A stretch of 64,000 nt of DNA from Phycisphaerae bacterium (lineage in GTDB: Bacteria; Planctomycetota; Phycisphaerae; UBA1845): assembly GCA_022072505.1 (NCBI GenBank), contig JAJVHU010000026.1, forward strand, positions 1 through 64,000, given 5' to 3'. This document shows, piece after piece, positions 3,029 through 60,638 of the stretch. Position 1 is the stretch's first letter, and each line of letters begins with the position of its first letter. The notes below the pieces were generated by a model, which made no database searches, was not told where the DNA came from, and worked only from the letters and a program-made list of their open reading frames with translations. The translations under genes were made by a program, and so were the position numbers.

Positions 3029-3465
3029 GTTACGGATCGCACATCACCGCCTGCGCGGCGCATCGCCCCGCGAGGTTCGCTTCGCATTCTCTGCGGTGGA
3101 GGGTCTCCAAGGGAGCGGGGCGCTCGCTTTCTCACGGACGCGGTTCGGATAGGCGGCGCGGATTGGCGCAGGGGGATTTGGCGCGGGGTCTGCGCCTGAC
3201 GGTTGTTTTTCTCGGAGGTGTGTCTCGGACGCTCGTTACGCCCTGATTCGAGGGTCCGCCGGGGCCGAAACCGCGTTCGTCCGCGAAAGCAGGCCCGTCC
3301 GCCGCCGGATTTCGCCGGTTCTCCTCTCCCGACTTGAAAAACTCCTCGTGGTTTGCGACAATCAGAGAGCGATCGGGTAGTAGGGAACCCGGTGGTTCCG
3401 TGCGAGCGGCCTGCCTTCCGCGCGGTGGTTCAAGGGTTGTCGAATCTCAGGAGGAGCACAGGGAA

Positions 3466-39691: not shown

Positions 39692-39750
39692 CCTAAGTGG
39701 AACCGCAGAACCACTTACCCGAGCCGCGGGCTTCAGCCCGCGCGAATTCG
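39692..39750. repeat. Partial copy of the GGCTTCAGCC palindromic element
   Basis: cctaagtggaaccgcagaaccacttacccgagccgcgggcttcagcccgcgcgaa. Confidence 0.75.
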
Positions 39751-39804
39751 CCGATGCTTGAGAACCTGCCAGCATGATGGGGCCGGCTTCGCGACAGGTT
39801 CTAT

Positions 39805-39914
39805 GTAAGAACGCAGAATGAATGACCCGCGCTGAGCCGCGGGGTTTACCCCGCGCGAGGCTTCGCGCGGGCTGAAGCCACGCGGCTCGGGTCAAGGTTC
39901 TGCGGTTCTACTTA
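39805..39914. repeat. ~110-bp palindromic intergenic element, copy B (inverted relative to 22673-22783)
   Basis: Near-identical reverse complement by eye. Confidence 0.9.
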
Positions 39915-40385
39915 GCGTCGAATGACCGTCTGAATGAAACCTGGAAGCTCGCGCCGCCGGATAACCAGAATCGCACCCGAGCATACGAACACGATCCACG
40001 CCAGCGCAAACAACAATCCCCCGTCGTCCATCACCACGACGCCGAGCCTGACGAGATGGCTGACGATCGCGCCGCTGATCACCCCCAGGGCGAGCGACGC
40101 GCCAAGGGACGCCGTTCTCGGAATCAGGATCAGGATGCATGCGACAAGCTCCGCCACCCCCGATCCGATCCGCCCCCACGGCTCCATTCCGAGGGTCGTG
40201 AATATGTACACCGATTCCCTGGCGGCCGTGAACTTGAAGAAGAGTGTCTGAAAGAGAATCAGCGCGGTGATCCCCTGCAACACCCAACTCAGCGCGATCG
40301 CCCGGCGGACCGGCGACCGCGCTTCACCCGCCGTCGACGCACCCTTCGCTGCTTCGGTCATGCTCGTCGGAACCCCTGTCATCAT
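39912..40385 (-). CDS. DoxX-like membrane protein
   Basis: Four hydrophobic helices, LQGITALILFQTLFFKFTAARESVYIFTTLGMEPWGRIGSGVAELVACILILI. Confidence 0.7.
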   Translation of the reverse strand: MMTGVPTSMTEAAKGASTAGEARSPVRRAIALSWVLQGITALILFQTLFFKFTAARESVYIFTTLGMEPWGRIGSGVAELVACILILIPRTASLGASLALGVISGAIVSHLVRLGVVVMDDGGLLFALAWIVFVCSGAILVIRRRELPGFIQTVIRR

Positions 40386-42804: not shown

Positions 42805-43514
42805 ACCCCTCGCACTGAACGGGGCTCCGTATCGACCGCGTCGCCTCCCTTCGGCGACCGCGTTTCCGGCCGCGGACTCGTCGCCCTTCCCCCGGCGCGC
42901 CGGCCGACCGTCTGAACTCCCTCCCGATGGGTGTGGCGTCCCCCATGTTCGCAGGGAGTAGCCGTGTCCGTCATGAGGCGGGGAAAGCCGGAATCCGAAC
43001 GAGCAACGCCGGCCCCGCGATCCTTCATCCCAGCGCCTCGCCGTTGGATGCCATTCACGAACGGCAAGTTACACAGGCCCGCCGTTCATCGAGGCCGGAT
43101 TGTCCCGGGAAAGGCCGCGCCCGCCGGATATCGACGCGGCGAAGACGTTCGGCGTGCGCTGTGGACCGGATTGATTGGAACGCGAAGCTCGTGAGCGAGG
43201 ATGGGAACAAACTCTGCGGACAGCCCCGCCTGCGTAACATGGGTTGACCGGTTGGGCCGGGAATCCGGGAAGTGTCCCGCGCCCGGCTCAATTCACGGTT
43301 TGAACTTCTCGAAGGCCTTGCCCTTGAATCTGCACACGCCGTGCTCGTGCGTGCCAAGCCACCAGCCGCCCGCTCGGTCACAATAGATCGAGAAGACCGT
43401 AATAGCATGACAGCGCCATTTAGGCTCAAGTTTGAGAGGGTGTCCGCCCGAGGTTTATGATGCATGCGGTTTTTGGGGGGCGCGCTCCTGGATTCTCAAT
43501 CAGGAGACTCGGCA

Positions 43515-43670
43515 ATGACTGCGGATCAGGGGCGATCGTTGCAGCCGGAGTTGGCTGCGCTGTTGGAAACGTTTCGTCCGTATATGAAGCGGGCGTCGAA
43601 CGATGGGCACTTGTTGGCGTATGTGTTGGGACTGTTGGCGGACCTGAAGCGCAAGAGCATCTTTGGAGCG
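43515..43670 (+). pseudogene. Truncated N-terminal remnant of an IS701-like transposase
   Basis: MTADQGRSLQPELAALLETFRPYMKRASNDGHLLAYVLGLLADLKRKSI, then similarity is lost (FGAISYQDSV...) and no DDE domain follows. Confidence 0.5.
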
Positions 43671-43695
43671 ATATCTTATCAGGACTCAGTGAGAT

Positions 43696-44127
43696 ATGGC
43701 AGCGGGCGATTTCTCTCAGACGGAAGCTCGGGTTTCACTCGTATTGAAGAGCGCAGAAATCACAGCCGATGAAATGGCGGAGAAGCTGTCGACCAAAGCT
43801 TCGCACACGTTGGCTATTGGCGATAGGCTGGGTTTCTCGCACATTACTGCGAAAGTTCATTGCTGGTCAATAAGATCAGAGTGGTTTTCACCAAGCGAGT
43901 ACGATCTCGACAATCGCACGAATAGACTGCTTGAGCAATTGATGGTCTGTGAGGCATCGTTAAGAGAAATGACGAGCGACGGTAGAGTGGAGGCGTATGT
44001 GCAATTTGACATTCATATCGTCGGTGAAGATCAGTTTCCCTTTACCCTGCGACCGCAAACTCTGGAGAAGGTCGTCCGCATTGGGGCGTCTATTGATCTA
44101 GATATTTATTCTGTTTCAAAAAGTTAA
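43696..44127 (+). CDS. DUF4279-like protein (candidate immunity protein)
   Basis: SLVLKSAEITADEMAEKLSTKASHTLAIGD...SIRSEWFSPSEYDLDNRTNRLLEQL...VVRIGASIDLDIYSVSKS. Confidence 0.65.
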   Translation: MAAGDFSQTEARVSLVLKSAEITADEMAEKLSTKASHTLAIGDRLGFSHITAKVHCWSIRSEWFSPSEYDLDNRTNRLLEQLMVCEASLREMTSDGRVEAYVQFDIHIVGEDQFPFTLRPQTLEKVVRIGASIDLDIYSVSKS

Positions 44128-44159
44128 GTTACACACAATAGCAGTTCGGCGGGGAGGCG

Positions 44160-44558
44160 GTGTTCACGGGGCACATGGACGGCGACTTCATCGCCGAGGT
44201 CCAGGTCAAGCTGAACTCGGGGAAGGACGCGGCGATCTATTTTCGCTATCTGGACCCGGACAACTGGTACCGGGCGCGGCTTCAGGGGACGCCTTCGGGG
44301 GCGGTTTTGCTGGAGAAGATGCTGAAGGGGAAGCTGACGACGCTGGATTCGGCGGCGGCGTTCCCTTCCGATCCGGACGTGCTTCGGGTCAAATGCGTTG
44401 GTTCGACGCTGGAGGCGTGGTATAATCCTGCGGGGACGCCGGGTTCGCCGACGCTTTCGGCCTCGGATGGGGACATCGGCTGGGGCGGGGTCCGGGTAGC
44501 GCGTCTCTCCGAGACGCGAGCACGGCACGGAGTGCCGCGCTACCCAAGCGCTCTTTGA
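44160..44558 (+). pseudogene. 5' fragment of RHS module 1 (concanavalin/LamG-like segment), interrupted by a palindromic element
   Basis: FTGHMDGDFIAEVQVKLNSGKDAAIYFRYLDPDNWYRARLQG..., frame broken at 44494-44545. Confidence 0.75.
44494..44545. repeat. 52-bp palindromic element (type P1), copy 1
   Basis: GGGTAGCGCG ... CGCGCTACCC 10-bp TIR; internal hairpins GCGTCTC-TCC-GAGACGC and GGCAC-GGA-GTGCC. Confidence 0.95.
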
Positions 44559-44613
44559 CAACTTGGAAGTCGCGTATGACTCGGACGACGATGATCGTCT
44601 CACCGGGTCGGAC

Positions 44614-44698
44614 GATCCTTGACTCGCCGCTTCACCGCAATACGGTGAACATCGCGTAGCGATGGGCGAGCGGGGCTCGCCGTGTCGTGTCAAGGATC
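44614..44698. repeat. 85-bp palindromic element (type P2) with three internal hairpins
   Basis: GATCCTTGAC ... GTCAAGGATC TIR; TTCACCG-CAATA-CGGTGAA, CATCGC-GTA-GCGATG, GGCGAGC-GGG-GCTCGCC; absent from the equivalent site in module 2 (~47110). Confidence 0.95.
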
Positions 44699-46150
44699 AT
44701 CAGCGAGGACTTCGCGGGGACGAGCGTCTCGCCGACGCATGACGACGCGGGGAACCTGACGAAGGACGCGGATTACGCCTACGTCTATGACGGCTGGAAC
44801 AACCTCGTCAAGGTGCGGGCGCAGAATGATGCCGACGTCGTGATCGGCGTCTACGCCTACTACGCCGACAACCGCCGGGCCTCGAAGGTCGTGACGAACC
44901 GCGGCGAGCTCGACGGGACGACGTACTTCTTCTACGACGGCCTGCGCGAGATCGAGGAGCGCAACGGCGCCGAGGCCGTGATACAGCAGTACGTCTGGGG
45001 CCACGAGTACGTCGACCAGCTCCTGATGATCCGCGGCGCCGGCGGCACGTGGTTCGTGCATCAAGACGCCAATTGGAACGTCATCGCGTTGACCACGCCC
45101 GGCGGCGACGTGGCGGAAGAGGTTCAATACCAGCCGTATGGTTTGCCGCAGGTCCGGCGTCACCTGGCCTTCGGCGACAGCGACGCGGATGGCGACGTGG
45201 ATGGCACGGACAACACGGCGCACACGGCCGCGCTGACCACGTACAACCGCACGTTCGACGCGGACTTCGACGCCGACGTTTCCAACACCAGCGGCGACGC
45301 GGACAAACTCGCCTGGGACGCCAGTTACAATGACCCCGACGCCTCTGTGACGATGGTCGTCGCCAACCGCAGCTTCTCGCCGACGGGGAACCCGTTCCTC
45401 TTCACGGGCCGCCGCCTCGACGCCGAAACCGGCCTCTACTTCTACCGGTTCAGGACATACCATCCGACGCTCAAGACGTTCATCCAACGCGACCCGCTGG
45501 GCTACGTCGACTCGGCGAGTCTGTATCAGTACGTGGGAGGCAGGCCGTTATTCTGGCTGGATCCGTTCGGTCTCGAAGCCTCGATCATCCTGATTGAAAG
45601 AACCTCTGGGAACAACGGAAGTTCGGGATGGTCGTCTGGGTCATCATCCGGAAAAGGCGGAACAAACCCGTATGGCCACATTGCGTTAAAGGTCACATAC
45701 GACGATGGCAGTGTCGTGTATTATGATGTTTCGACGCCGATTGACCAGAGCAATACAGCAAAAGGAGCAGTCAACACGTACACGAGCGCGCAATTCGTGG
45801 AACGTTACGATGGGGGTTGGGTTGAAGCGGATGTTCCCGGTGACCCCGATGAGGAGAAAATGCGCGATTACATCGAATCTCTTGAAGGTGAATGGGACTA
45901 TAACCTCTTCACGAATAACTGCGTGACCTTTGCCTGTAATGTTGTAGCTGCTGGTGGGCAGCCGTTGGGTGAGACATACGTTTTCCCGCGAGAGTTGATG
46001 AAGTACTATTGGGCCGCCAACGGACATAGGGGGCGAATAGTCCCAGCGCCAACAAAGCGCGGTCGAACTGCTGATGAGAGATTGCGCCGGGGGCTTCCAA
46101 TTGAAGATGAGGTAGACGAGGAAGAAGATGACAACGACCCGTGCGAATAG
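44687..46150 (+). CDS. RHS-core orphan module 1 with putative permuted-papain-like C-terminal tip
   Basis: RHS hyperconserved GNPFLFTGRRLDAETGLYFYRFRTYHPTLKTFIQRDPLGYVDSASLYQYVGGRP; tip with GHIALKV ... TNNCVTFACNVV. Confidence 0.8.
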   Translation: MSRIISEDFAGTSVSPTHDDAGNLTKDADYAYVYDGWNNLVKVRAQNDADVVIGVYAYYADNRRASKVVTNRGELDGTTYFFYDGLREIEERNGAEAVIQQYVWGHEYVDQLLMIRGAGGTWFVHQDANWNVIALTTPGGDVAEEVQYQPYGLPQVRRHLAFGDSDADGDVDGTDNTAHTAALTTYNRTFDADFDADVSNTSGDADKLAWDASYNDPDASVTMVVANRSFSPTGNPFLFTGRRLDAETGLYFYRFRTYHPTLKTFIQRDPLGYVDSASLYQYVGGRPLFWLDPFGLEASIILIERTSGNNGSSGWSSGSSSGKGGTNPYGHIALKVTYDDGSVVYYDVSTPIDQSNTAKGAVNTYTSAQFVERYDGGWVEADVPGDPDEEKMRDYIESLEGEWDYNLFTNNCVTFACNVVAAGGQPLGETYVFPRELMKYYWAANGHRGRIVPAPTKRGRTADERLRRGLPIEDEVDEEEDDNDPCE

Positions 46151-46313
46151 CCTTGGCACAGGCTCTGTCAGCAACTGCCGCTATGATTGGTTCCTGAGGG
46201 CGTTGCGCAGCGACATGTGATGAAGTACTAGAACCTATCACAATACTCGCAAACTATGGTTAATACGACCGAAGTGCAATGCAAATTCATCGAAGAAACG
46301 CAGTCCCGCCGCG

Positions 46314-46796
46314 ATGAGCGAAAACCATAAAATGACGTTCTGGGATAGGTTCTACTACAGCAATCCTAAACTCCGACGAAACAGACGATGGTTGCCGAGG
46401 CATGTATGGTTCGCAACGCTAGGCCTGCTGCATGTTGCCGCCGCACTCGTTATTGAGCAGATAGGGTCGATAGCCAGCTATAGTATCTACTTAGTTATTG
46501 ACTTTCCATTGGCTATCTTGGTTGAAGAATCAGAATATGTGTATCGGTATGGGCAATGGTTTGATAGCCATCGTTTTTTCTCGCTTAAGTGCCATTGGTT
46601 TATCGTTTTGCATGGAACTATCATGTATGCAGGCATTGGATATGTTATTGGACTAATTATGGAGCGCCGCACCGTTAAACAGGGTGCTGTCAATGGGTCA
46701 CGTTCGCAAGGAAACGGTGATGGCTGCATACAAAGTCGCGGCAACATATTCCGAGAGGATATGTCTAATAATAGGGATCCGGACGCCCAGTATTAA
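46314..46796 (+). CDS. Small membrane protein, candidate immunity for RHS tip 1
   Basis: Two to three hydrophobic helices, AT-rich, immediately after the RHS tip. Confidence 0.5.
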   Translation: MSENHKMTFWDRFYYSNPKLRRNRRWLPRHVWFATLGLLHVAAALVIEQIGSIASYSIYLVIDFPLAILVEESEYVYRYGQWFDSHRFFSLKCHWFIVLHGTIMYAGIGYVIGLIMERRTVKQGAVNGSRSQGNGDGCIQSRGNIFREDMSNNRDPDAQY

Positions 46797-46857
46797 CTTG
46801 TCAATCGTTTGTTCTCTCGCAGAACACTTGGCCAAGTAGAGTGGAATCGAAGGTGGG

Positions 46858-48666
46858 TTGTTTGTATTTGAAGGGCCACTCCAGTATCGAGCATGGTTTT
46901 GTCGTCCGGACGTGCTGCGGGTCAAATGCGTGGGCTCGGCGCTGGAGGTGTGGTATAATCCCTCGGGGACGCCGGGAGCGCCGACGCTGTCGGCGACGGA
47001 TGGGGACATCGGCTGGGGCGGGGTGGCGCTTAGCGGCTGGGACGCGCTCTTTGACAATTTGAAAGTCGCGTATGACGCGGACGACGATGACGACATCACC
47101 GGGTCGGACGACGTCGTCATCAGCGAGGACTTCGCGGGGACGAGCGTCTCGCCGACGCATGACGACGCGGGGAACCTGACGAAGGACGCGGATTACGCCT
47201 ACGTCTATGACGGGTGGAACAACCTCGTCAAGGTGCGGGCGCAGAATGATGCCGACGTCGTGATCGGCGTCTACGCCTACTACGCCGACAACCGCCGCGC
47301 GTCCAAGACCGTGACCAACCGCGGCGACCTCGACGGCGTGACGTACTTCTTCTACGACGGCCTGCGCGAGATCGAGGAGCGCAACGGCTCGGAGCAGGTG
47401 ACGCAGCAGTACGTCTGGGGCCACGAGTACATCGACCAGCTCCTGATGATCCGCGGCGCGGGCGGCACCTGGTTCGTGCATCAAGACGCCAATTGGAACG
47501 TCATCGCGTTGACCACGCCCGGCGGCGACGTGGCTGAGGAGGTGCAGTACCAGCCGTATGGTTTGCCGCAGGTGCGGCGCCACCTGGCCTTCGGCGACGC
47601 GGACGCCGACGGCGACGTGGACAGCAGTGACAACACGGCCCGCACCGCGGCGCTGACGACGTACAACCGCGCCTTCGACGCGGACTTCGACGCCGACGTG
47701 TCCAACACCAGCGGCGACGCGGACAAGCTCGCCTGGGACGCCAGTTACAATGACCCCGACGCCTCTGTGACGATGGTCGTCCCCAACCGCAGCTTCTCGC
47801 CGACGGGGAACCCGTTCCTCTTCACGGGAAGACGCCTCGACGCCGAAACCGGCCTCTACTTCTACCGCTTCCGCACGTACCACCCGACGCTCAAGACGTT
47901 CATCCAGCGAGACCCGCTGGGCTACGTCGATTCGGCGAATTTGTATCAATATGTGGGCGGAATGCCGACGGCGGCGGGGGATCCGCTGGGGTTACGGACG
48001 TTTGATGAAGATGATCCGCCTCGCGACTGGCCCGGGAATATCGGAAAGGGACTAGGTGAGGACAAGGATGATGGAATCACAGGAGACTGCGAGCGCCTAG
48101 AGAAGGTCAAGAAGATAAGCACGGATGCCGCACGGCGGGGTGCCGCTGATGATTATCGCGGAATGCGGGCAACTGTCGGAATAGGAATGGTTGCTATCGC
48201 TGGGATCCTTTTGCCCGGTCCGGATGATATCATCTTCAGTGGCTTAGCAGCTCGATACGGTTATCGCTGGGTAACGCAGTTTGGGAGAAAAGTGTTAGTT
48301 GATAAGAGGGGCCGCAAGATCGCCGCGGATCAGGCTAAACAGCTAGAAAGCATCTACAACAAGCTGAAAAAACTCCAAAAGGGTGGCAATCTAGCCTCTT
48401 TGACTATTGAAGAACTGAGAAAACTACTATCAAGATCCGAACTCGCTGCACTAAGAATGTTGTTTGGCCAAGGTAAGGATGGGGCACAAGCATCGCTTGC
48501 ACTAATCAACGCAGGCCTAAAAGGTGTTCCTCCTGGTCTTACGCAGAACGCTTTGGATATTTATGCTGAAATCGCAAGGAGATCTATAGAAGCTGGACAT
48601 GATGATGGTGTGCAGATAATGCGACTTGAGATTATCGCAGCCATAAACGACCTCATGAAACCGTGA
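46858..48666 (+). CDS. RHS-core orphan module 2 with uncharacterised C-terminal tip
   Basis: Same core as module 1; tip LRTFDEDDPPRDWPGNIGKGLG...AALRMLFGQGKDGAQASLALINAGLKGVPPGLTQNALDIYAEIARRSIEAGHDDGVQIMRLEIIAAINDLMKP. Confidence 0.85.
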   Translation: MFVFEGPLQYRAWFCRPDVLRVKCVGSALEVWYNPSGTPGAPTLSATDGDIGWGGVALSGWDALFDNLKVAYDADDDDDITGSDDVVISEDFAGTSVSPTHDDAGNLTKDADYAYVYDGWNNLVKVRAQNDADVVIGVYAYYADNRRASKTVTNRGDLDGVTYFFYDGLREIEERNGSEQVTQQYVWGHEYIDQLLMIRGAGGTWFVHQDANWNVIALTTPGGDVAEEVQYQPYGLPQVRRHLAFGDADADGDVDSSDNTARTAALTTYNRAFDADFDADVSNTSGDADKLAWDASYNDPDASVTMVVPNRSFSPTGNPFLFTGRRLDAETGLYFYRFRTYHPTLKTFIQRDPLGYVDSANLYQYVGGMPTAAGDPLGLRTFDEDDPPRDWPGNIGKGLGEDKDDGITGDCERLEKVKKISTDAARRGAADDYRGMRATVGIGMVAIAGILLPGPDDIIFSGLAARYGYRWVTQFGRKVLVDKRGRKIAADQAKQLESIYNKLKKLQKGGNLASLTIEELRKLLSRSELAALRMLFGQGKDGAQASLALINAGLKGVPPGLTQNALDIYAEIARRSIEAGHDDGVQIMRLEIIAAINDLMKP

Positions 48667-48669
48667 TAA

Positions 48670-49194
48670 TTGTGCGATCAGAAGGGCGACAACACCTCTG
48701 ACTTTGCCATGAACGATATTCGTTGCAATTGGTTGGTTATCTTGCTCTTGGCCGATGCGCCGAAGTTGTTTCGCATGTGCCGCTTGCACAAAAAGTTTAT
48801 ATCTAGAAAACTTGCTTTTAGCCTGGTTAAAGAGGGGACGTTTAATGCATTCTACGATTGGATCGCATCCCCCAGTGGGGTCATTATAGGTGTAAGATAC
48901 TGGGTATTAGGTGACGAGCTAAATGGCTATTGTTTTTCGTGGCATAAGCTACCATATATTAGGCGGACAATGCATCCTGATGCGTATGACATTAGATTTA
49001 ACTGCGATTTACCGGAGTGTGTTCCTCCAAGAAACGATCAATGTTTTGGTGGTGATGTCATTTATAAAGCAGATCAGTCTGAGCTTTATGCCCTGGCGCT
49101 AGATCTGTACGGATTAGATCAGTATGATTTGGTCGCCGGGCTGAGAATAATCGACCTGCCAGAGCTGAAGGAGACGAAGGATGGATCCAATTGA
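48670..49194 (+). CDS. Candidate immunity protein for RHS tip 2
   Basis: AT-rich ORF starting 4 nt after the RHS stop; no recognisable domain. Confidence 0.5.
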   Translation: MCDQKGDNTSDFAMNDIRCNWLVILLLADAPKLFRMCRLHKKFISRKLAFSLVKEGTFNAFYDWIASPSGVIIGVRYWVLGDELNGYCFSWHKLPYIRRTMHPDAYDIRFNCDLPECVPPRNDQCFGGDVIYKADQSELYALALDLYGLDQYDLVAGLRIIDLPELKETKDGSN

Positions 49195-49213
49195 TGGATC
49201 CAATTATTGATCA

Positions 49214-49430
49214 AGCCCTCACCATCCGGACGCGCTTCGGGTAAAGTGCAGCGGCTCCGCGCTGGAGGTGTGGTTGATGGTGGCGCAGGTCTCTGACCTG
49301 CGAATCCGGGGGTTCGCCGACGCTTTCGGCCTCGGATGGGGACATCGGCTGGGGCGGGGGCCGGGTAGCGCGTCTCTCCGAGACGCGAGCACGGCACGGA
49401 GTGCCGCGCTACCCAAGCGCTCTTTGACAA
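49214..49430 (+). pseudogene. 5' fragment of RHS module 3 carrying two palindromic insertions
   Basis: CGGACGCGCTTCGGGTAAAGTGC...GCGCTGGAGGTGTGG, then gcaggtctctgacctgc hairpin and P1 copy 2. Confidence 0.75.
49363..49414. repeat. 52-bp palindromic element (type P1), copy 2
   Basis: Same sequence as 44494-44545, at the equivalent site of another RHS module. Confidence 0.95.
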
Positions 49431-49431
49431 T

Positions 49432-51024
49432 TTGAAAGTCGCGTACGACTCGGACGACGATGACATCATCGACGATCCGGGGGACGACATCGTCATCGGC
49501 GAGGACTTCGCGGGGACGAGCGTCTCGCCGACGCATGACGACGCGGGGAACCTGACGAAGGACGCGGATTACGCCTACGTCTATGACGGCTGGAACAACC
49601 TCGTCAAGGTGCGGGCGCAGAACGACGCGGATGTGGTGGTGGGCGTCTACGCCTACTACGCCGACAACCGCCGGGCGTCCAAGACGGTGACGAACCGCGG
49701 GGCGCTCGACGGGCAGACGTACTTCTTCTACGACGGCCTGCGGGAGATCGAGGAGCGTAACGGCGCCGAGGCCGTGACGCAGCAATACGTCTGGGGCCAC
49801 GAGTACATCGACCAGCTCCTGATGATCCGCGGCGCGGGCGGCACGTGGTTCGTGCATCAAGACGCCAACTGGAACGTCATCGCCCTCACGACGCCCGGCG
49901 GCGACGTGGCCGAGGAGGTGCAGTATCAGCCGTATGGTTTGCCGCAGGTGCGGCGCCGCCTGGCCTTCGGCGACGCGGACGCCGACGGGGACGTGGACAG
50001 CAGTGACAACACGGCCCGCACCGCGGCGCTGACCACGTACAACCGCACGTTCGACGCCGACTTCGACGGCGACGTTTCCAACACCAGCGGCGACGCGGAC
50101 AAGCTCGCCTGGGACGCTTCGTACAATGACCCGGACGCCTCAGTGACGATGGTCGTCGCCAACCGGGCGTTCTCGCCCAGCGGCAACCCGTTCCTCTTCA
50201 CGGGCCGCCGCCTCGACGCCGAAACCGGCCTCTACTTCTACCGCTTCCGAACGTACCACCCCACGCTGAAGACGTTCATTCAGCGCGATCCGCTTGGGTA
50301 CGTCGATTCGGCGAGTTTGTATCAGTATGTGGGGGGAATGCCGACGGCGGCGGGGGATCCGTTGGGGCTCGAAGAAGACTCTCTGGGCGTTGATGAGTTC
50401 ATAAGAGAGCGTCGTGAGCAGGTTATTAATGGCCTTAAGGATCTCGGGAAAACAATTGAAGCAGGCCTCTCAATCATTGCAGCGGTAAACCCAATCATTG
50501 ATGGTTATCAGATTGTTACGGGCAAGGATGCGATAACCGGGAAAGATCTTTCCGCGGTCGAAAGAGCAATTGAAGCTGCTGGATTAATGATCCAAGGTGG
50601 CGGTTGGATCATTGAAGGCGGAGAAAAAGTCTACAAATTCTATGCAAAGGCCGAGGATGGAACAACGCGCGTATTTGTCATTCTGGCTAAAAGTTATGGT
50701 GAAGCGAAGGAGACGGTTGACCATCTCAGAAAAGGGTTGCAGTGGGGAAGCAAAGCGCCGCGGTCGGTAACGCCTACGGGAAAAAAGCAAATCATTACTT
50801 GGTGGTGGCGGAACCCACGGACGGGAAAGATAGAGGAATCCACAGTCGAGTACGATAGATTTGGTCGACAGGTCGCTCGTACTGATTGGACTAATCACGG
50901 GAGACCTGCGCAACATGGCGATCCTCATCACCATGTAACCGACTATGGACCTGGTAAAGGCAATGGTTGTGAATCGGGTCCGCTTGACGGACCGTTTCCT
51001 GGACATGAAAAACCCAAGCCATGA
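49432..51024 (+). CDS. RHS-core orphan module 3 with pre-toxin-TG-like segment and His-rich C-terminal tip
   Basis: RHS core; VNPIIDGYQIVTGKDAITGKDLSAVERAIEA; terminal YDRFGRQVARTDWTNHGRPAQHGDPHHHVTDYGPGKG. Confidence 0.88.
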   Translation: MKVAYDSDDDDIIDDPGDDIVIGEDFAGTSVSPTHDDAGNLTKDADYAYVYDGWNNLVKVRAQNDADVVVGVYAYYADNRRASKTVTNRGALDGQTYFFYDGLREIEERNGAEAVTQQYVWGHEYIDQLLMIRGAGGTWFVHQDANWNVIALTTPGGDVAEEVQYQPYGLPQVRRRLAFGDADADGDVDSSDNTARTAALTTYNRTFDADFDGDVSNTSGDADKLAWDASYNDPDASVTMVVANRAFSPSGNPFLFTGRRLDAETGLYFYRFRTYHPTLKTFIQRDPLGYVDSASLYQYVGGMPTAAGDPLGLEEDSLGVDEFIRERREQVINGLKDLGKTIEAGLSIIAAVNPIIDGYQIVTGKDAITGKDLSAVERAIEAAGLMIQGGGWIIEGGEKVYKFYAKAEDGTTRVFVILAKSYGEAKETVDHLRKGLQWGSKAPRSVTPTGKKQIITWWWRNPRTGKIEESTVEYDRFGRQVARTDWTNHGRPAQHGDPHHHVTDYGPGKGNGCESGPLDGPFPGHEKPKP

Positions 51025-51398
51025 ATCCTACAATTAAGAGCGTTTTTGAGATTGCGTTGGAATCCGCATCGCAGATTAATCTAGAAAGTCGAGCTTTTGA
51101 CCGGCTTATGAGTTTAATTGTCCATCGGTGCCCCGAGGAGCTTCCAGGTGCTTGCACGATTGACATGGTTTTTTCGGGCGAAAATTCTCATGCGCATTGT
51201 GTGATGATTCGTTTTAGTGGTGTAAGAATGCTGCGCATTGCAGAGTGGAATATTGATAATGTACGATTGGATTCGATGACAGCTGTCGATGTGCGGCACG
51301 AACAATGGGAGAACGTTTTTTGGGAAATCACCGAGGAGGAGCAGGGCTTAATTTCCTTTCGATGCCTAAGTGTTCGTATTCAAGAAATTCGGTTATGA
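51021..51398 (+). CDS. Candidate immunity protein for RHS tip 3
   Basis: ATG overlaps the toxin TGA (ATGA); small soluble AT-rich ORF. Confidence 0.55.
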   Translation: MNPTIKSVFEIALESASQINLESRAFDRLMSLIVHRCPEELPGACTIDMVFSGENSHAHCVMIRFSGVRMLRIAEWNIDNVRLDSMTAVDVRHEQWENVFWEITEEEQGLISFRCLSVRIQEIRL

Positions 51399-51486
51399 GT
51401 GCTCGATGTTTCATGGTAGAGTCGCGATACGGATGGCCAGCCCGCCCAATCGCTATTTGACAATTTGAATTACATAGCAGCCTGCC

Positions 51487-51795
51487 GCAGGTCAAGCTGA
51501 ACTCGGGGAAGGACGCGGCGATCTACTTTCGCTATCTGGACCCGGACAACTGGTACCGGGCGCGGCTTCAGGGGACGCCTTCGGGGGCGGTTTTGCTGGA
51601 GAAGATGCTGAAGGGGAAGCTGACGACGCTGGATTCGGCGGCGGCGTTTCCTTCCGATCCGGACGTGCTTCGGGTCAAATGCGTTGGTTCCGCGCTGGAG
51701 GTGTGGCTGATGGTGGCGCAGGTCTCTGACCTGCGAATCCGGGGGTTCGCCGACGCTGTCGGCGACGGATGGGGACATCGGCTGGGGCGGGGTCC
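51487..51795 (+). pseudogene. Terminal fragment of a fourth RHS module (no RHS core)
   Basis: QVKLNSGKDAAIYFRYLDPDNWYRARLQGTPSGAVLLEKMLKGKLTTLDSAAAFPSDPDVLRVKCVGSALEVW identical in type to module 1. Confidence 0.8.
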
Positions 51796-51957
51796 GGGTA
51801 GGGTAGGTCGTCTCTCCGAGACGACAATGCGTGGCGCGTCTCTCCGAGACGACAATGCGTGGCGCGTCTCTCCGAGACGCGAATACGGCACGTGTGCCGC
51901 GCGACCCGGATTCGCGGCACAGAGTGCCGCGCTACCCCTTCAACCCGGCGCTACCCC
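51796..51957. repeat. Expanded P1-type palindromic element with tandemly amplified hairpins
   Basis: cgtctctccgagacgacaatgcgtggcg repeated, followed by ggcacgtgtgcc and ggcacagagtgcc hairpins and gcgctacccc end. Confidence 0.85.
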
Positions 51958-51961
51958 GTTG

Positions 51962-52100
51962 AGCCTGGGAATTTTTCCCCAGCCGGGGCCTCATGATCGC
52001 GCGTCTTTCGGGTCACGGACCTGCCTTTCAGCCTTGGATTGGGTGTTTGATGCCGGAGGGCTTCCAATAAATTCCAAGACTCGTTGGGTTGGTTGAGGCG
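51962..52100 (+). repeat. Intergenic repeat (copy of 54914-55045)
   Basis: gcctgggaatttttcc...gcgcgtctttcgggtcac...gcctttcagcc.tggattgggtgtttgatgc.ggagggcttcc. Confidence 0.75.
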
Positions 52101-52265: not shown

Positions 52266-52316
52266 GCGTGTTGCACTCCGGAGCCGGGTGGAGATACGGG
52301 TGCGACCTTATCCGCC

Positions 52317-52405
52317 TGTTGAAGAACGCGCGATCGGCTTTCGTGATACCGGTTTTTCCCGGTGAAATTCGCCTCCCGGAGAGAGGCGTTACCCTTTTTC
52401 AACGG
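52317..52405 (+). repeat. ~90-bp nested-hairpin repeat, copy 2
   Basis: gttgaagaacgcgcgatcggctttcgtgataccggtttttcccggtgaaattcgcctcccggagagaggcgttaccctttttcaac. Confidence 0.85.
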
Positions 52406-52470
52406 ACTGTTATGCCGGCGGAATCCGTTCTGGGCGCGAGGCGCCGTCCGGCGCGAGGGCGACTTGCGCG

Positions 52471-60323: not shown

Positions 60324-60427
60324 TTAACCGCCCGTTGAAAAACTCACGACCGGTCTTTGTGATGCCGGTTTTTCCGGTAAAATTCGCGTTCCGGAGGGAC
60401 GCGCACCCTTTTTCAGCGGGCGGTTAA
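60324..60427 (+). repeat. 104-bp nested-hairpin repeat, copy 3, with 19-bp near-perfect TIR
   Basis: TTAACCGCCCGTTGAAAAA ... TTTTTCAGCGGGCGGTTAA (one mismatch). Confidence 0.9.
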
Positions 60428-60638
60428 CCGTGTCAGGGAACCTTCAGAGCCTCAAACATCCGGCGCGTGTTCCGCAGCGCGGCACGAATGTCGAACCTTG
60501 AATTCAATGCGTTGCCCCCTCGACGAGATCGGCGTACGACTGAAACCGGGCTGCCTGCGTCGACATCGTCACGGCAATTTCACGGCGCGCGGCCGGACGG
60601 AATCAACCGCGGGAGCGCCGGTCCGCGCTTCACAATCC

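Follow-up and report, generated by a model that had tools for sequence, protein, structure and literature searches.

What is a head-to-tail run of Rhs cores, each leading into a different C-terminal sequence and none preceded by the start of an Rhs gene, and what became of the gene from which it came? The run lies in the window, a stretch of 64,000 bases of DNA that corresponds to bases 1–64000 of contig C15 in a 4.67-Mb draft MAG (70 contigs, 94.9% complete). We consider it very probable that this array is made up of orphan Rhs C-terminal toxin/immunity modules that were displaced from a parent gene, now missing, and have partly decayed.

Layout of the array

The features of the locus, in order, are as follows.

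43406–43661, +: truncated left end of an IS701-like element, with the rest of the transposase missing (96% identical to 256 nt in contig C8)
43696–44127, +: DUF4279 ORF, candidate orphan immunity gene, toxin tip missing (PF14106, E 1.3e-12)
44140–44695, +: 5' segment of module 1, with palindromic inserts (aligned with modules 2–4 and genome G001)
44696–45574, +: Rhs core 1, in frame, ends DPFGL (TIGR03696, E 1.5e-18)
45575–46150, +: tip 1, candidate permuted papain-like cysteine hydrolase (weak PPPDE, LRAT and TseH matches below cut-off; homologue after DPLGL)
46228–46354, no strand: MITE of ~127 bp with inverted terminal repeats (CTAGAACCTATCCCA...); five other copies, in contigs C53, C47, C1 and C17
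46314–46796, +: membrane-protein ORF, candidate immunity gene 1 (three hydrophobic segments; first ~14 codons are MITE)
46905–47115, +: 5' segment of module 2, intact, reads into the core (module alignment)
47116–47994, +: Rhs core 2, in frame, ends DPLGL (TIGR03696, E 4.6e-18)
47995–48666, +: tip 2, of no recognised class, with a single hydrophobic stretch (no match in Pfam, none convincing in PDB)
48709–49194, +: soluble ORF, candidate immunity gene 2, alternative TTG start at 48670 (position and frame; no TM segment)
49224–49491, +: 5' segment of module 3, with palindromic inserts, same start point as module 2 (module alignment)
49492–50370, +: Rhs core 3, in frame, ends DPLGL (TIGR03696, E 3.4e-17)
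50371–51024, +: tip 3, PT-TG pre-toxin region and His-rich end (NHGRP...PHHHV) (PF14449, E 2.8e-8)
51021–51398, +: ATGA-coupled ORF, weakly Imm50-like, candidate immunity gene 3 (PF15594, E 0.0026)
51429–51469, +: ~41-bp scar of a 5' segment, possible trace of another lost module (repeat family D9)
51487–51793, +: fragment 4, a core-less 5' segment that runs into palindromic repeats (98% identical to 44202–44420 over 219 nt)

An earlier, sequence-only reading of this DNA had described three cores head to tail with a fourth 5' fragment behind them, and this layout was recovered by a repeat search, which found 300-nt direct repeats starting at 44697, 47117 and 49493 (copies 93–94% identical to the first), and by matches of all three cores to Rhs_assc_core (TIGR03696, E 1e-17 to 1e-18). 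As expected of orphan modules, each of the three consists of an Rhs core fragment that passes through DPxGL into a variable tip, with a small ORF on the same strand after it; in module 1 the MITE separates the pair. The three core–tip frames are open, as is each of the four small ORFs. The same reading had held that each core carries a different, AT-richer tip followed by a small unrelated ORF, and the tips are indeed mutually unrelated, with GC content stepping down from 65–66% in the cores to 49–52% in the tips and 44–46% in the small ORFs that follow them. It was also correct that the modules lack an N-terminal delivery region. The frames begin in the 5' segment, and neither the modules nor the DNA upstream of them at the locus contains an N-terminal or export region of an Rhs protein.

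Conservation and mosaicism of the cores

Nucleotide-level alignment of the modules, which had been proposed as a check, showed that the three cores are mutually 89–92% identical over 879 bp. With the region as a DNA query the other cores were returned at E=0, which excludes chance similarity. Values of dN/dS among the window cores were 0.12–0.20, which is purifying selection, and on this basis the cores appear to have diverged mostly as working coding sequence. The informative core sites (119) fell into 45 runs and none of 10,000 shuffles gave as few, indicating that the cores are mosaic, with the proviso that the shuffle ignores clustering of linked changes.

Relatives of the core were found in a Phycisphaerae MAG (JABWBH01), in a planctomycete MAG (BOJX01, BroJett003) and in a short contig binned as Villigracilaceae. 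The window cores share 82–88% identity with those of the sister species G001, which is below the identity among themselves. In a tree of the cores, those from the window were split from the rest with a support of 95, while support inside the non-window group was low.

Tips and adjacent ORFs

The tips are about 190–224 aa long and are rare, whereas the core occurs in every genome of the genus. They are presumed to be toxic and to be neutralised by the adjacent candidate immunity ORFs.

Tip 1 gave matches to PPPDE, LRAT and TseH of 18.7, 16.6 and 14 bits, each below the Pfam cut-off, and carries a His in GHIAL and a Cys in TNNC. In genome G538 a relative of tip 1 directly follows the DPLGL of a longer Rhs frame and retains these His and Cys residues in GH and NxCVT. 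The role of this sequence as a tip, and our guess that it may be a permuted papain-like cysteine hydrolase, are both supported by that relative. Only one partial, distant match to tip 1 was found outside this genome among 347 genomes of the class. PDB sequence searches with the tips yielded chance-level or unconvincing matches, among them SUMO proteins for tip 1, and these were rejected. The ORF after tip 1 had been called a membrane protein, and its three hydrophobic segments agree with this, but its N-terminus is uncertain as the start codon and ~14 codons lie inside the MITE. A 128-bp match upstream of this ORF (46314) could have pointed to paralogous immunity genes; the match is the MITE and the proposal was dropped. 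No family match was found for the ORF.

Tip 2 had no Pfam match and no convincing PDB match, and among 294 genomes of the phylum it is present only here. Single-sequence AF2 models of tips 1 and 2 (pLDDT 34 and 43) were too poor for a fold search. The ORF that follows tip 2 (48709–49194) has no TM segment, in agreement with its earlier description as soluble, and matched no family.

Tip 3 passes the gathering score for PF14449 (PT-TG; 34.1 bits against 23.5), and we infer that its His-rich end may be Ntox24- or Tox-HHH-like. Among the 347 class genomes it had a single partial, distant match, in G591, that covers the pre-toxin region only. The next ORF (51021–51398) overlaps the stop codon of tip 3, so that the ATGA coupling noted earlier was confirmed. 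It scored 18.3 bits against PF15594 (Imm50), below the gathering score of 27.1; Imm50 has been paired with Tox-HHH and Ntox24 (PMC3482391). Malate dehydrogenase, proposed for this ORF by a PDB sequence search, was rejected as an unconvincing match.

The ORF at 43696–44127, upstream of module 1, had been thought DUF4279-like and passes the gathering score for PF14106 (DUF4279; 48.4 bits against 25). In Salmonella, DUF4279 has been proposed as an Rhs immunity domain (PMC13304343). A search against PDB sequences returned only chance-level or unconvincing matches for this ORF.

5' segments and mobile-element scars

The modules had been said to begin each at a different point in the same concanavalin-like segment. 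The first part of this claim holds for module 1 and fragment 4, which start near 44140 and 51487, but not for modules 2 and 3, which share a start at TCCGGACG (about 46905 and 49224). The concanavalin-like assignment found weak support: Pfam gave no match for the 5' segment in the window, its homologues had sub-threshold matches to 3keto-disac_hyd (E 0.05–0.5), and a PDB sequence search yielded nothing beyond chance-level or unconvincing matches. In contig C23 of G003, a genome of the same genus, a long Rhs frame that is open at the contig end has the 5' segment immediately before the core. It is followed by a second module, with 85% identity that sets in about 250 nt ahead of the 5' segment. 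This arrangement identifies the segment as what normally lies in front of the core in longer Rhs genes. Another contig of G003 (C1, L076 2–4135) holds a long Rhs frame of 1377 aa that stays open to the end of the contig and has an HEVGH metallopeptidase-like tip.

Palindromic inserts interrupt the 5' segments of modules 1 and 3 and fragment 4. In module 1 they lie near 44491–44547 and 44616–44695, and the second brings an in-frame TGA. Short palindromic repeats (GCGTCTCTCCGAGACGCGA) are seen at 44491–44547, 49360–49416 and 51795–51935, and this palindrome has 19 sites genome-wide (≤2 mismatches) compared with 0 for a control. The IS701-like end at 43406–43661 recurs in C8 and at the contig ends of C34 and C21; its match to the IS701 transposase is weak (E 0.0033), and 35 bp separate it from the DUF4279 ORF. 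Taken together, the scars left by the IS, the MITE and the palindromes tip the balance towards an array in partial decay.

Beyond the modules, a dispersed repeat of ~105 bp was found at 52303–52414, 60324–60429, C15:65242–65349 and C15:69560–69662, 80–95% identical to copies in C8 and genome G002. Positions 39693–39916 contain stretches 89–94% identical to DNA just upstream of a full-length Rhs gene on contig C41 (L037 19429–19545).

A second array with its parent, and relatives in other genomes

The sequence-only reading had noted that a full-length source gene is missing from the window. This is the case, and neither the 94.9%-complete assembly nor a species-level genome scan contained any gene that joins the window core to an N-terminus.

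In the same genome, contig C41 carries a full-length Rhs gene of 1,295 aa (RHS repeats, E 1.2e-34) followed by seven orphan modules. In described enterobacterial loci, orphan modules usually sit downstream of a main rhs gene that shares their core, a placement seen for the C41 array and not for that in the window. The orphan cores on C41 are 88–95% identical to the parent and start at parent nt 1807, 1895, 2022, 2301, 2446, 2504 and 2525, yet all end at nt 3125–3140. Recombination in the core would be expected to leave just this pattern, in which the 3' ends are fixed at the tip junction and the 5' ends are scattered. The core that lies farthest from the parent resembles it most closely (95.4%), which is not what a simple series with the oldest module farthest away predicts. 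The core family on C41 differs from that of the window, with about 29–33% amino acid identity (tblastn).

The C41 tips (L037 = C41:1–20000, between 1590 and 19382, minus strand) are cysteine-rich. At least four end in an NC or DC motif (YNCGSWAHDY, IQDCHWAV, YNCRDFAKDAMSKC and MNCRYFTATALSQC) that resembles tip 1 (TNNCVTFACNVV), and six of the seven C41 immunity ORFs have a hydrophobic segment. Envelope targets are possible for these tips.

In G001, contig C17 carries three modules of the window family and a terminal fragment similar to fragment 4, and C60 carries one more module; both runs begin at contig ends. The setting of the G001 array differs from that in the window, and no synteny was found between the two, the flanks being unlike except for short dispersed repeats. 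The C41 parent with its seven orphans, the same-core modules of the sister species and the tip-1 relative in G538 together lend good support to the earlier identification of the window modules as orphan Rhs-CT/immunity modules.

Origin and present state of the array

Under the reading that we favour, a full-length Rhs gene would repeatedly acquire new DNA for core, tip and immunity protein by homologous recombination in the conserved core, each event displacing the old tip and its immunity gene to a downstream position, still headed by part of the core. Experiments in Salmonella and Dickeya back this displaced-tip model (PMC3967940, PMC3150448). Without an N-terminal or export region the orphan tips would probably be silent, while expression of the small immunity genes may continue. 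Recombination of an orphan core with a full-length gene from its own family could presumably bring the attached tip back into use. In Salmonella, passage selects cells whose main rhs gene has become fused to an orphan tip through 522 bp that are 95% identical (PMC3967940); by analogy, a full-length gene that shares the window core could take up the window tips, with about 880 bp of core available for the exchange. Here the parent would have been lost, perhaps by an IS701-associated deletion beside the DUF4279 gene, or would lie in the unassembled ~5% of the genome.

Two other accounts of how the array arose carry little weight. Simple tandem duplication of one module, with ends that diverged later, would explain why the window cores are closer to each other than to those of G001, but such within-genome similarity is equally expected from gene conversion. 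The tips have no mutual similarity and a GC content sharply unlike that of the cores, the 5' ends vary and the cores are mosaic, and we consider duplication highly improbable. We give even less credence to an assembly artefact in which reads of several Rhs genes were joined at the shared core. The assembly is a draft MAG in 70 contigs, and a large number of the Rhs cores of this genome and its sister genomes are located at contig ends, but the modules match each other exactly over at most 124 bp, which makes a mis-join unlikely though possible. Three modules occur together on one contig of G001, an independent case, and eight cores on the single contig C41.

Further alternatives share the origin set out above and concern the present use of the array, and so their likelihoods are not exclusive of displacement. 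The modules may be functionless relics of an Rhs locus broken by mobile elements, neither a reservoir nor a bank of immunity genes. The IS701-like remnant, the MITE at the start of ORF 46314, the palindromic inserts, fragment 4 and the 41-bp scar all fit such a history, as does the failure to find a same-core parent in the assembly. Against it, every core–tip frame and small ORF has stayed open and core dN/dS is well below 1, although that selection may date from before displacement; we see this as a possibility of some standing, short of an even chance. Alternatively, the small ORFs could be expressed and protect against the Rhs toxins of neighbouring strains, with the tips as passengers. Retention of a DUF4279 gene without its tip and expression of an orphan immunity gene in E. 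coli EC93 (PMC3150448) speak for this, but a pure bank has no need of open tips, and a MITE sits at the start of ORF 46314; on balance it seems rather unlikely. The recombination reservoir originally proposed is upheld in part: the mosaic cores and purifying selection agree with it, but no same-core parent was found in the assembly or in the species-level genome scan, and the scars are typical of decay. That the array is a maintained, parentless store, its tips and immunity genes mobilised by recombination with full-length genes from or to other strains, we think improbable. If true, Rhs arrays would be a population-level library in planctomycetes.

Comparison with known systems

The orphan Rhs arrays described in the literature cited here are enterobacterial (PMC3150448, PMC3967940). 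Displaced modules in the window share with the orphan rhs-CT/rhsI loci of Dickeya dadantii 3937, Yersinia pseudotuberculosis and Salmonella LT2 (PMC3150448, PMC3967940) a core without an N-terminus, the DPxGL junction, a variable tip, an adjacent small immunity ORF, head-to-tail order and a varying length of retained core. Unlike those loci, the window has no main rhs gene upstream and its assembly no rhs gene with the same core, the core is preceded by a segment common to other planctomycete Rhs genes, and toxicity is a prediction. The eleven orphan cdiA-CT/cdiI pairs of E. coli EC869 (PMC3150448) likewise form a long array of displaced tips and immunity genes, but with CdiA and VENN in place of the Rhs core and DPxGL.

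The polymorphic toxin cassettes surveyed by Zhang et al. 2012 (PMC3482391), a survey that uses the planctomycete term 50 times, are alike in their tip-replacing toxin–immunity cassettes, pre-toxin region and pairing of Imm50 with Ntox24/Tox-HHH. In contrast to that catalogue, no family was matched by tip 2 or by two of the immunity candidates, and the Imm50 score does not reach the cut-off. Several of the tips and candidate immunity genes lie outside catalogued families. The arrangement is of a known type, found here in the Phycisphaerae, a poorly studied group, and includes an array of seven orphans behind a parent gene. That C41 array has the same layout as the window, with variable 5' and fixed 3' core ends, and differs in its full-length gene and core family. 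Comparing the two offers a natural test of how such arrays grow and of their fate once the parent is lost.
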